From Algoriphagus sp. (GTDB taxonomy: Bacteria; Bacteroidota; Bacteroidia; Cytophagales; Cyclobacteriaceae): a DNA stretch of 64,000 nucleotides. Where the stretch lies: the NCBI GenBank assembly GCA_030729785.1, contig JANQWS010000023.1:124001-188000 (forward strand). The letters are read 5' to 3'. The notes under the pieces were generated by a model, which was not told the origin of the DNA, ran no database searches, and saw only the letters and a program-made list of their open reading frames with translations. Below are positions 12,723 through 18,455 of this stretch, one piece after another; positions within the stretch are counted from its first letter, which is position 1, and each line of letters begins with the position of its first letter. The position numbers were made by a program, and so were the translations under genes.

Positions 12723-13835
12723 TCAGTCAAACACTCCTTTTAAAATAGCCTCCTTTAAAAGCCCTTGAAATTGATCTTGGGCTTTATTTTTGTAAGCAGG
12801 GTCTGAAAAATTTAAGGGAGGCAATTCCAAGAATACATCAAATTCAGAAGTTAATTCTCCCTGACTAGAGGCAATCAAAGCTATTTTTTTGCCCAGCTTT
12901 TGTGCGATATTTTTTAATTCAAAACAGGCTTTCCCCTCCTCACTCTGCTGATCGTATTGTCCCTCTCCAGTAATAATCCAATCTGCCCATCCTACTTTAT
13001 CGTGGAGATTTACCCGCTCAAAAAAATAGGAAGAACCAAATTCAATTTGACTAGGAAAAAAAAAGTTCAATCCCAATGCGATACCACCTGCAGCACCAAA
13101 TCCAGGCAAATCCACCCATTTCTCAGAAAGAGTTTTTTTCACCAAAAGATTGAAAAAATCGAAAGTGATTTTTTCAGTTTGTTCAATATCCTCTGGTTGG
13201 AGCCCTTTTTGAGGACCAAAAATTCGAACAGCACCATTGGAACCAAAAAATGGGTTTTTCACATCACAAAGTAAGGTGAATGAAAGTTGAGGCTGTTTCA
13301 AGGGCCGTTGAATATGTTTACATGTTGCAATCAGATCAGGACAAAATGCAGGAAGTTCCCTCCCGTGAGCATCCAAAAACAAAAAACCCAGAGCCTGAAG
13401 AATACCTACTCCCAAATCAATGGTGGAGGATCCGCCCAACCCTAAAACTACTTGATTGGCTCCCCGTTTTAGGGCTTCTTGAATCAAGATGCCAGTGCCA
13501 TAGGTAGAAGTCACACTCGTATTTCTCTCTTCAACCCCTAAATTGGCTAATCCTGAACATGTGGAAACATCCAAGAAGGCAACCTTATTGGACTCATCCC
13601 AGCCAAAATGTCCTTCTATTGGCTTCCCAATTGCATTCAACGATAGGCACTTAATTCTTTGGATTCCCAAGGAAGTACACAATAAATCACAGGTTCCATC
13701 GCCTCCATCGGCAAGTGGTTGAACTCTTATTTCAGCTTTTGGATAGAATGCAGCCAATTGCTCCTGAATATACCTCGAAGCTTCAAGAGCAGTTAGTGTT
13801 CCTTTGTAAGCATTTGGGGCAATCAAGAATTTCAT
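12723..13835 (-). CDS. Glycerate kinase (GarK/GlxK family)
   Basis: MKFLIAPNAYKGTLTALEAS, QPLADGGDGT, GLGGSSTIDLGVG, GEGQYDQQS; overlaps upstream stop (ATGA-type). Confidence 0.93.
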   Translation of the reverse strand: MKFLIAPNAYKGTLTALEASRYIQEQLAAFYPKAEIRVQPLADGGDGTCDLLCTSLGIQRIKCLSLNAIGKPIEGHFGWDESNKVAFLDVSTCSGLANLGVEERNTSVTSTYGTGILIQEALKRGANQVVLGLGGSSTIDLGVGILQALGFLFLDAHGRELPAFCPDLIATCKHIQRPLKQPQLSFTLLCDVKNPFFGSNGAVRIFGPQKGLQPEDIEQTEKITFDFFNLLVKKTLSEKWVDLPGFGAAGGIALGLNFFFPSQIEFGSSYFFERVNLHDKVGWADWIITGEGQYDQQSEEGKACFELKNIAQKLGKKIALIASSQGELTSEFDVFLELPPLNFSDPAYKNKAQDQFQGLLKEAILKGVFD

Positions 13836-16795
13836 AATTCCTTCATCCTTGCAAAATAATCTTTCGCTGCTGCTTTTACTTTTGGAGCAAGATATAAGGC
13901 TGCAATCATATTTGGGAAGGCCATCACAGCATACATTCCATCTACCAAACTCACTACGACATCCAAAGATGCTACTGCACCAACTACTATGGTAATCAAG
14001 TAAAAGTAATTGTAATAGTTAGCCTTATCGGCTCCAAATATGTAATTCGCACATTTGTGCCCATAATACGAATAAGTAAACATGGTAGAAAGTGCAAATA
14101 CTAAGACAGATAGCATCAATAAATATTTCCCTACGCCAGGGATTCCAAGTTCAAAAGCAGCCAATGTGAGTTTTACCCCATCATTTTCAGTGGTTTCCCA
14201 AACGCCTGTAAGTAAAATAGCCAAAGCAGTAAGCGTACAGACGACTATGGTATCAATAAATGGACCTAGCATCGCAATTAGTCCTTCTCGAATGGGCTCT
14301 TTGGTTTTAGATTGTCCATGGACCATTGGGGCCGTACCAATTCCTGCTTCATTTGAAAATGCCGCTCTCCGTGCGCCAATAATAATTACTGATCCAACTG
14401 CACCACCCAAAACTGAATTGCCTGTAAAAGCATCCACTACAATTAGCTGCAGCATGGCGGGAATATTTTCTACATACTGAAAAACAATGAGAAGGATGGT
14501 TACAAAGTAAATAGCAACCATGACTGGGACCATTTTTGAAGCCACAGCGGCAATCCGCTGGATTCCCCCCAATATGACCACTGCCGTTAATACCATCATC
14601 ACCAATCCAATAATCCAGCTATTTCTTGTAGCTGCTTCTACCGTACCCGGCTCCAATACCACAGCTTGAATGACAGCAGTCAATTGATTGGCTTGGAAAA
14701 TAGCCAACAATCCAATCACTCCTGCAATAGAAAAAATATAAGAAAGAAACTTCCATTTTTTTCCCATTCCCTGATCAATGACGTACATAGGCCCGCCTTG
14801 AAGTACCCCAGCAGAATCTTTTCCTCGGTACATAATAGCCAAACTGCACGTATAATATTTGGTAGCCATTCCCATAAATGCAGCCACCCACATCCAAAAA
14901 ATTGCCCCAGGACCTCCCATATTTAGCGCTATTGCTACCCCTGAGATATTCCCTAATCCAACAGTTGAGGCAATCGCCGACATCAACGCCTGTTTAGAGG
15001 ATATTTGCCCAGGAGCCAAATCATCTTGGTATTTTCCTCGAAGTAAAGCAATGGCATGCCCCATTTTGGTAAAAGGAACAAAACCTGAGTGAATAAAAAA
15101 GAAAGCACCACCCCCCAATAACAAAATCAGGATAGGAGGACCCCAAATCCAATTGCTAAACGAAATAATTAACGTTTCAAGGCCAGATTTTTTTTTTTGC
15201 TCCCAATCAATCGTTGGGGTTTTATAAAAGTTCACACCTTGAATGCTCCATCGAGCTCCTTGAAAAGGAATTCTAGAGGCAAAGCTCTCCCAATTTCGAT
15301 TTTCTTTGGTGCTCCAAGCTACTTCAGCCAATGCTGCTAACCTTGGGAAGGCTAGGTAATTTATATCCTCTCGATTGGTAACCGTCTCAGACCAAAGTGG
15401 TGCTTCGACACCCAAAATATCTTCCTTCGAAAGCCCGGATACATACGTACTGGGATCCCATAAATAGGCAGAATCTAAGTCAATGTAAGCCGCCCAATGC
15501 AATCCAATTCTAGAGAGGCTATCGTACTGCATATCCAAATAGGTTTTTTTAGCAGGTGACAACAATACCTTATTGCCCTGTGTATGGGCAAGCATAGCAT
15601 TCTCTTCCTTTGCCCAAAATTGAGCTACATTCCCTGGCAATAGCTTTGCAGTGGCAATTTCATCCCATCCAATGCTAGTTTTGCCATACTTTGAAACAAT
15701 ATCCTGAACTCGTTCTACAAAATAAATGTAATCCTCCTTTTCAGTAACGTGCGACTCATCACCGCCAATATGAAAATAGGGACCTGGAGAAAGCAAAGAA
15801 AGTTCCCTTACCACACTATCCACAAATGCATAGGTGAGTTCCAATTGAGGCGCAAACGTACTCCATCCCACTTCAATACCGGTATACAATTGAGAGGCCT
15901 GCGGAGCCCTTAATGGCAATTGGTAATCCAATGGGCTTGTATTTAGTGCATCCAATCCTTGCCCAATTGGTAAGTTCACCCCAGGATTTAATTCAGCATA
16001 AGCAGCTAAGGCCGAATTGGTATGGCCCGGCATATCTATCTCAGGAACAATCGTAATAAACCGATCTGCAGCATAAGCTACTATTTCCTGGTAATCTTCT
16101 TGCGTATAAAAGCCCCCTTGGCCTCCTCCAACTTCTGTACTTCCGCCTATTTCGGTTAGCTGAGGCCAAGATTTTATTTCTATTCGCCAACCCTGATCGT
16201 CTGTAAGATGAAGATGAAGGTAATTCATCTTTAAACTTGCCATTTGATCAAGATAGAAAAGGACATCTTCCTTTGGAAGAAAATGCCGAGCGACATCCAG
16301 CATGGAACCTCTGTAAGTAAACTCTGGGGAATCGACTATTTCCCCTTGTGGAATAACCCAAGCTACTTTTTGAACAGTACCCTGCTCAATCTCAACAGGA
16401 AATAATTGAATGAGAGATTGAATGCCATAAAAAAGTCCAGCCTCTCCGGCTGATGTTATACGGATTTCTTTATCGGCAATCAGAAGTTCGTAGGCCTCTA
16501 GATTTCCAGATTGACCTAGTTCTAGCACAATATTTCCTTGATCTTTAGATACCGGCAAATCAAATCCTGTAGCCGGACGAAGGCGCGATGCGAGAGATTC
16601 TCCTAGTAAAGTCATTCGCTCACTCGATCCAATCAATTTAATCCCAGATTCTGCATTTAATTCAAAAATTCCTTTCCCATTTTCGATGCTTTTAGGCAAA
16701 GGAATTAGCCCTTTTTCAGAAAGCTGTGCAGGCTTTTGGCAGGATGAAAGAATAAAGAGAACAGAAACAAATGAGGTCCAGAGTAAATTTTTCAT
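13832..16795 (-). CDS. Fusion protein: GH20 beta-N-acetylhexosaminidase lipoprotein (N-term) + AGCS-family Na+:amino-acid symporter (C-term)
   Basis: Likely start ATG 16795 (MKNLLWTSFVSVLFILSSCQK lipobox). GH20 motifs: LHLTDDQGWRIEIKSWP, PEIDMPGHTNSALAAY, HIGGDESH, GWDEI. From about 15196 down: FSNWIWGPPILILLLGGGAFFF..., GNISGVAIALNMGGPGAIFWMW, FSNEAGIGTAPMVHG (AGCS/AlsT). Uninterrupted in one frame. Confidence 0.85.
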   Translation of the reverse strand: MKNLLWTSFVSVLFILSSCQKPAQLSEKGLIPLPKSIENGKGIFELNAESGIKLIGSSERMTLLGESLASRLRPATGFDLPVSKDQGNIVLELGQSGNLEAYELLIADKEIRITSAGEAGLFYGIQSLIQLFPVEIEQGTVQKVAWVIPQGEIVDSPEFTYRGSMLDVARHFLPKEDVLFYLDQMASLKMNYLHLHLTDDQGWRIEIKSWPQLTEIGGSTEVGGGQGGFYTQEDYQEIVAYAADRFITIVPEIDMPGHTNSALAAYAELNPGVNLPIGQGLDALNTSPLDYQLPLRAPQASQLYTGIEVGWSTFAPQLELTYAFVDSVVRELSLLSPGPYFHIGGDESHVTEKEDYIYFVERVQDIVSKYGKTSIGWDEIATAKLLPGNVAQFWAKEENAMLAHTQGNKVLLSPAKKTYLDMQYDSLSRIGLHWAAYIDLDSAYLWDPSTYVSGLSKEDILGVEAPLWSETVTNREDINYLAFPRLAALAEVAWSTKENRNWESFASRIPFQGARWSIQGVNFYKTPTIDWEQKKKSGLETLIISFSNWIWGPPILILLLGGGAFFFIHSGFVPFTKMGHAIALLRGKYQDDLAPGQISSKQALMSAIASTVGLGNISGVAIALNMGGPGAIFWMWVAAFMGMATKYYTCSLAIMYRGKDSAGVLQGGPMYVIDQGMGKKWKFLSYIFSIAGVIGLLAIFQANQLTAVIQAVVLEPGTVEAATRNSWIIGLVMMVLTAVVILGGIQRIAAVASKMVPVMVAIYFVTILLIVFQYVENIPAMLQLIVVDAFTGNSVLGGAVGSVIIIGARRAAFSNEAGIGTAPMVHGQSKTKEPIREGLIAMLGPFIDTIVVCTLTALAILLTGVWETTENDGVKLTLAAFELGIPGVGKYLLMLSVLVFALSTMFTYSYYGHKCANYIFGADKANYYNYFYLITIVVGAVASLDVVVSLVDGMYAVMAFPNMIAALYLAPKVKAAAKDYFARMKEL
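15188..15198 (-). repeat. A11 homopolymer (coding strand) at GH20/AGCS junction
   Basis: + strand T11 at 15188-15198; coding tgg gag cAA AAA AAA AAA tct ggc ctt (W E Q K K K S G L). Confidence 0.95.
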
Positions 16796-16994: not shown

Positions 16995-18455
16995 ATGAAA
17001 AGAAAGAATTTAAAGCCCGAAAAAAACTCAAGAAGAAACTTTATCAAAGGATCTGTACTTGCAGTTGCAGGAATAACCCTTGTACCAAGGCATGTCTTGG
17101 GAGGTCCAGGCTACTTAGCTCCAAGTGATCGACTACGAGTCGCTTCCATTGGAATCGGAGGAATGGGTTACGGGGACCTTTCTGGAGTACATAAAAGCGG
17201 AAAAGTAGACATTATTGCCCTCTGTGATGTGGATGATACCCGAGCTGCAAAGGGAAGAAAAGATCATTCAAAAGCTTCCTACTATAAGGATTACAGAGTG
17301 ATGCTTGAAAAGGAGGAGAAAAATATTGATGCAATTACGGTTTCTACACCTGATCACATGCATGCAGTCCAAGCTATGATGGCCATGAGAATGGGTAAGC
17401 ACGTTTATGTTCAAAAACCCCTGTCCCACGACATTTATGAGGCTAGAATGCTCACTGAAGCAGCTGAGAAATACAAAGTAGTGACGCAGATGGGCAACCA
17501 GGGTTCATCTGGTGATGGGGTACGGAAGATGGTAGAATGGTACGAAGCTGGACTCATTGGGGAGGCTATTAAGGTTTGGTCCTGGACCAACCGACCTGTT
17601 TGGCCCCAAGGGATTCCATGGCCAAGTACCCCTATTACCCCTCCTGCTGATTTAGATTGGGACCTTTGGCTTGGAACTGCTCCCTATAGAGACTATGTTG
17701 GTAATTTAGTTCCTTTTAATTGGAGAGGATGGTGGGATTATGGGACAGGAGCTCTTGGAGATATGGCTTGTCATATCATGGAACCACCCTTCCGCGTGCT
17801 GGGATTGGGATACCCCAAATCTGCTGAATGTTCTGTTGGCTCCGTCTATGTGGGTGAATTCAAGCAAGGTCATTTTCCAGAAAGTTGTCCTCCTTCCTCA
17901 CACATCACCTTAAGATTTGATCGTCCTGGAAAGGATGATCTGGAGTTCCATTGGATGGATGGTGGCATACAGCCAACCCGCCCTGAAGAGTTGGGAGCAA
18001 ATGAGCAAATGGGCGATGGTGGAAATGGCGTGATTATCGAAGGAACAAAAGGAAAAATGATGTGCTCCACCTATGGTGCTAATCCCCTCCTATTACCTAC
18101 CTCAAAAACTAAAGACATCCAAGTAAAAGAATCGCTCTATCGAGTTCCTGGAGGCGATCGAGGGCACTATGACAATTGGGTAAATGCTTGTATTGCAGGT
18201 TTTGGTTCCACTGAATTTAAGCAACTCAGCTCACCTTTCTCCATCGCTGGACCACTGACAGAATCGGTATTGATGGGTAATCTTGCCATCCGGAGCTACG
18301 ATTTACAAGTGCCTAGAAAGGGAAATGCAAATCAGGTGGATTACCCCGGTCGTGGAATCAAATTGCTTTGGGATGGACCAAATATGAAAATCACAAATTT
18401 CGAGCCTGCAAATCAGTTTGTAACCAGAACCTACAGATCCGGTCATGCGCTGTAA
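16995..18455 (+). CDS. Gfo/Idh/MocA family oxidoreductase with Tat-like signal
   Basis: RRNFIKGSVLAVAG signal; ASIGIGGMGYGD, DVDDTRA, VQKPLSHDIYEARML. Confidence 0.9.
   Translation: MKRKNLKPEKNSRRNFIKGSVLAVAGITLVPRHVLGGPGYLAPSDRLRVASIGIGGMGYGDLSGVHKSGKVDIIALCDVDDTRAAKGRKDHSKASYYKDYRVMLEKEEKNIDAITVSTPDHMHAVQAMMAMRMGKHVYVQKPLSHDIYEARMLTEAAEKYKVVTQMGNQGSSGDGVRKMVEWYEAGLIGEAIKVWSWTNRPVWPQGIPWPSTPITPPADLDWDLWLGTAPYRDYVGNLVPFNWRGWWDYGTGALGDMACHIMEPPFRVLGLGYPKSAECSVGSVYVGEFKQGHFPESCPPSSHITLRFDRPGKDDLEFHWMDGGIQPTRPEELGANEQMGDGGNGVIIEGTKGKMMCSTYGANPLLLPTSKTKDIQVKESLYRVPGGDRGHYDNWVNACIAGFGSTEFKQLSSPFSIAGPLTESVLMGNLAIRSYDLQVPRKGNANQVDYPGRGIKLLWDGPNMKITNFEPANQFVTRTYRSGHAL

Follow-up and report, generated by a model that had tools for sequence, protein, structure and literature searches.

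A single-origin, in-frame fusion of a GH20 hexosaminidase lipoprotein to an AGCS-type sodium symporter in Algoriphagus

In SLC5/STAC histidine kinases, a solute symporter and another functional domain are present in one chain (PMC9100948). This is the nearest known kind of protein to the one encoded in the window, the whole 64,000-nucleotide stretch of Algoriphagus sp. DNA analysed here: both combine a symporter with an extra domain, which in the kinases is a signalling module attached via STAC and in the window is a glycosidase predicted to be exported. Each half of the fusion also has relatives of solved structure. The GH20 beta-N-acetylhexosaminidases of Streptomyces (4c7d and 1hp4) share the two-domain fold, about 41% identity over the domain, the catalytic motifs and the C-terminus with the window protein; unlike its GH20 half, which is joined to a transporter, they are stand-alone enzymes. 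AgcS from Methanococcus maripaludis (6cse/6csf), also stand-alone, is 37% identical and can be aligned with almost the whole transporter, but carries GTGN where the subfamily in the window has GLGN. In other Algoriphagus and some other Cyclobacteriaceae, separate GH20 and AGCS genes of the same families are found in the same order and with the same downstream glycerate kinase; within the genus, their products are 58-73% (GH20) and 73-88% (AGCS) identical to those of the window. These loci differ in having two ORFs, between which lie a terminator, a promoter-like box and an AGCS start codon. No description of a comparable fusion of a glycoside hydrolase and a transporter was found in the open literature, although this does not prove its absence. 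The domain architecture is a new one built from known families, and it is real and unusual.

The fused frame occupies positions 13832-16795 of the reverse strand, running from an ATG at 16795 to a TGA at 13834-13832, and encodes 987 amino acids (about 108 kDa) without an internal stop. The first-pass annotation had read it as a GH20 lipoprotein and an AGCS transporter in one frame, and Pfam and NCBIfam searches find the domains of both. The protein begins with a predicted signal peptide and a lipobox (LFILSSC; 16739-16795, reverse strand), the cysteine of which, Cys19, is found in each of the 16 fused copies whose N-terminus is complete, in the variants LSSC19, LGSC19 and LGAC19. It is followed by the GH20b domain (PF02838; residues 30-155, 16331-16708, reverse strand; E 7e-18, 66.0 bits) and the GH20 catalytic domain with its HIGGDES motif (PF00728; residues 159-496, 15308-16321, reverse strand; E 2.7e-87, 293.8 bits), both of which exceed their gathering cut-offs. 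The motifs HIGGDE, YLDM and WxET, comprising the catalytic Asp-Glu pair and the substrate pocket, align to 4c7d and 1hp4, and the alignment continues to the final residues of the Streptomyces enzymes (FYRSPQVPW versus FYKTPTIDW). Since these C-terminal residues are reached, the GH20 domain is complete, as had been claimed for the barrel. The transporter domain (TIGR00835; residues 551-980, 13856-15145, reverse strand) covers the agcS profile from 1 to 424 of 424 with a score of 408.9 bits (cut-off 272.65), is matched by PF01235 at residues 594-986 and matches 6cse structurally. A glycerate kinase gene (PF02595/TIGR00045; 12723-13835, reverse strand) comes next, and its start overlaps the stop of the fusion by 4 nt (ATGA), in keeping with the downstream coupling noted at the outset.

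An AlphaFold2 model was built from 69 window and locus proteins and has a mean pLDDT of 81.5. Structure prediction, which had been proposed for the linker and the topology, gave both folds: the GH20 half matches 4c7d with a target TM of 0.93, and the AGCS half matches 6cse with a target TM of 0.92 and an rmsd of 2.7, corresponding to a LeuT-type fold. The linker is predicted with low confidence, the dip at the join being short (residues 533-537), and the pTM of the whole model is 0.57, which makes the modelled orientation of the GH20 and AGCS halves, and the angle between them, tentative. Positive charge is located in the loop that follows TM1, in the one that follows TM3 and in the C-terminal tail. 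This distribution fits an N-out/C-in protein of 11 helices, the layout of AgcS, and the suggestion that an outside N-terminus of AGCS is compatible with an exported GH20 agrees with it. The Lys-rich linker would also lie outside, contrary to the positive-inside tendency. Only a transporter with its N-terminus outside can be fused productively behind a Sec signal and an exported domain; hence, the join of GH20 to AGCS is an allowed one.

The layout from which the fusion arose can be read from the 58 genomes with separate genes, in which GH20 ends in KVxW and a stop codon, and the intergenic gap up to the ATG of AGCS measures 89-202 nt (median 150). A hairpin with a T-run and a dG below -6 is found in the gap in 56 of the 58 genomes as against 32% of dinucleotide shuffles; with a dG below -10, the figures are 46 of 58 and 5%. 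The pattern TTTG-N17-23-TANN(A/T)TNG, which resembles the Bacteroidota promoter, is present in the gap in 38 of 58 genomes and in 2.8% of shuffles. The fused copies lack both the stop codon of GH20 and the whole gap with its terminator and promoter. The simplest reading is that a single deletion of about 130 nt in one ancestor would have removed the GH20 stop, the terminator, the symporter promoter and the start codon, and that the AGCS half would now be translated from the GH20 start. What is left between the natural end of GH20 (W531) and the AGCS N-terminus is a linker of about 10 amino acids (EQKKKSGLE, residues 532-540, 15176-15202, reverse strand), and the spacing between the matched domains is 30 nt in 17 of the 18 fused copies and 33 nt in one. 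At the site of the ancestral AGCS start, where separate relatives have ATG, the window has a CTT codon (L539; 15179-15181, reverse strand); neither ATG nor GTG occurs there in any of the 18 copies, which have Leu, Phe or Ile in place of the methionine. Between the 25th codon ahead of NWIWG and the 24th codon past it, no fused copy contains an in-frame ATG, whereas a GTG near the AGCS N-terminus was seen in one copy only (G013), inside TM1, and TTG codons are scattered. Both the missing in-frame ATG by the transporter N-terminus and the reliance of the symporter on the start codon of GH20, first noted in the window, are supported, the former across all fused copies.

Of 76 Algoriphagus genomes searched, 75 gave a match; the fusion is present as 18 copies in 17 of these, and the other 58 have two separate genes. 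In a tree of the concatenated proteins, all 18 fused copies form one clade (SH-aLRT 99) with one change of state. The clade consists of small-genome Algoriphagus, and at least 17 species carry the fusion. The fused genomes all appear to be MAGs; judging by their titles, they stem from several different projects, and they have the same junction. One MAG (G028) contains two different fused copies (L011 and L040; C9 and C150), which is probably due to a strain mixture or a duplication. Neither full-length queries against 298 genomes of the family nor a junction query against 399 Bacteroidota genomes gave a spanning match beyond the fused Algoriphagus clade. Open frames of about 1030 amino acids in five genomes (G034, G035, G025, G009 and G032) were considered as independent fusions and rejected as spurious, as their DNA has a stop and a gap. 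Two separate genes throughout the close relatives had been named as a finding that would speak against the fusion; that is the state outside the fused clade, whereas all relatives found within the clade carry the fusion. The locus joins two known families in frame; the fusion is conserved, has a single origin and makes topological sense.

The values of pN/pS in the fused clade and in its separate sisters are 0.158 and 0.171 for GH20 and 0.096 and 0.117 for AGCS, so no visible shift in selection after the fusion was found by this comparison. The linker, with 0.28, is looser than the domains and still coding-like, and HIGGDE is kept in all fused copies. Judged by these patterns, both halves are still under purifying selection, and both look functional. 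No second AGCS was found in the window genome, the assembly of which is 84% complete. General compaction with fusion of many genes was considered by comparing 373 kb of the window genome with 800 kb of a separate-gene relative (G034), and it was rejected. Median same-strand gaps, 45-93 nt on three contigs of the window genome and 53 nt in the relative, are similar, and among 205 ORFs of the latter with a good match, GH20-AGCS is the only pair mapping to one ORF of the window genome; no pair joined in the relative and split in the window genome was found among the approximately 205 orthologues. Hence, in the sample compared, the fusion is a rare event and not one of many.

AGCS is directly followed by glycerate kinase in the Algoriphagus loci reaching that far, often with the ATGA overlap of 4 nt, and the pair was also found in eight other Cyclobacteriaceae genomes in which no GH20 adjoins AGCS. 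A GH20 gene between a Gfo/Idh gene and AGCS is confined to Algoriphagus and some relatives. As the pairing exists without GH20, glycerate kinase is the older partner of AGCS, its coupling predating the fusion, and this argues against a substrate shared by GH20 and AGCS. The AGCS-glycerate kinase pair extends across many Cyclobacteriaceae genera (12723-13835 on the reverse strand in the window; loci L131, L133, L135, L139 and L141), with varying upstream neighbours such as GH20, Gfo/Idh and apparent ProB/ProA, and its conservation may reveal the true substrate of the transporter. AGCS members are known for the transport of small amino acids such as alanine and glycine. One characterised member carries glutamine (PMC12795558). 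A serine-like substrate feeding glycerate would be a guess for the present subfamily, and an Rfam search gave no riboswitch before AGCS by which the substrate could be named. Residues 611-620 of the fused protein (14936-14965, reverse strand) read TVGLGNISGV as against TIGTGNIAGV in AgcS 6cse, possibly a change near the substrate site. On the other side of the fusion, the window encodes a Gfo/Idh oxidoreductase with a twin-arginine-like N-terminus (16995-18455, forward strand), which is related to the glycoside 3-dehydrogenase BT_2158 with 481.6 bits, below the cut-off of 750; a similar gene adjoins GH20/AGCS in several genera. Further on lies a deoxyhypusine/homospermidine synthase-like gene (PF01916; 18560-19540, reverse strand) that scores under all NCBIfam equivalog cut-offs.

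We consider it quite probable that the fusion arose once and in frame through the deletion described above, and that it gives a GH20 tethered at the inner membrane to an N-out AGCS, the two halves working separately. The signal peptide would take GH20 across the inner membrane, GH20 would fold in the periplasm, Cys19 would be lipidated, and TM1 of AGCS, crossing the membrane from the outside inwards, would serve as a stop-transfer helix. In the predicted product, the hexosaminidase is held at the inner membrane, bound 1:1 to an N-out Na+/small-amino-acid symporter, and is anchored there twice, by its putative lipid and by the transporter, whereas a free lipoprotein is predicted for the GH20 of relatives with separate genes. 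GH20 enzymes act on terminal GlcNAc and GalNAc, and each half of the fusion would most likely keep its own function, that is, periplasmic trimming of such residues and import of a small amino acid, the carbon of which may enter metabolism via glycerate kinase.

A closer cooperation had been proposed in the first-pass annotation, namely a tethered "cut and import" machine in which the GH20 product is released at the mouth of the symporter and taken up by the AGCS half. The covalent tether lies on the topologically right side and has a linker of only about 10 residues, at least 17 species have retained the fusion under constraint on both domains, and the lack of any other fusion among some 205 comparable orthologues shows that compaction does not routinely give rise to such joins. 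These points are outweighed by the 58 relatives in which GH20 and AGCS each have their own termination and start, AGCS having been transcribed apart from GH20, by the pairing of AGCS with glycerate kinase in loci that lack an adjacent GH20, and by the absence of a visible shift in selection after the fusion. Moreover, the products of GH20 are amino sugars, whereas the AGCS family carries small amino acids; to our knowledge, its members do not carry sugars, and the sugar released by GH20 is no known AGCS substrate. The proposal is therefore judged unlikely, and the same low probability is given to a wider functional tether, in which GH20 would sit over the outer mouth of the symporter as one unit with it and feed an unrecognised amino sugar or glyco-amino acid to an AGCS of changed specificity, or in which the halves would regulate each other through occupancy.

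Two further readings turn on the junction itself, where a run of 11 A residues (A11; 15188-15198, reverse strand) is located. Being a classic error site exactly at the join, it could suggest a sequencing or assembly artefact, either a homopolymer indel or a mis-join of two genes. The run is common to exactly three mutually nearest genomes (G000, the genome of the window, G003 and G021), and it is interrupted in the other 15 copies, which read AAGAAAAAG, AAAAAAGCG, GAAAAA and similar with the frame unchanged. The same junction recurs in 17 genomes of different projects, and linker changes between close fused pairs are mostly synonymous, like those in both domains. As an error of one nucleotide cannot remove the terminator, the promoter and the start codon, a homopolymer frameshift was rejected, and an artefact of any kind is extremely improbable. 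A one-base slip on the run would give a GH20-only product. It has accordingly to be asked whether the fusion is expressed and not always whole, either because slippage on A11 in this subclade yields a GH20-only lipoprotein beside the full fusion or because the Lys-rich linker is cut in the periplasm. With 10 or 12 A residues, a stop is reached within about 4-10 codons in the window and G003 alike, and within the join it is the linker that the model predicts with the least confidence; against this, A11 occurs in 3 of 18 copies only, and in AT-rich DNA a shifted frame is expected to run into a stop early by chance. We regard such partial products as improbable, slightly more so than a functional tether.

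The preferred reading, a deletion-born fusion with separately working halves, offers a clean natural case in which one small deletion would have welded an exported enzyme onto a polytopic transporter, the ancestral and the derived state coexisting in one genus. Because the join can work only with the AGCS N-terminus outside, it gives a testable view of the limits that topology sets on gene fusion in the cell envelope. It also lets one ask what a glycosidase lipoprotein would lose or gain by being moved to the inner membrane, and it shows that a transporter gene can lose its own promoter and start codon and persist under the control of its neighbour.
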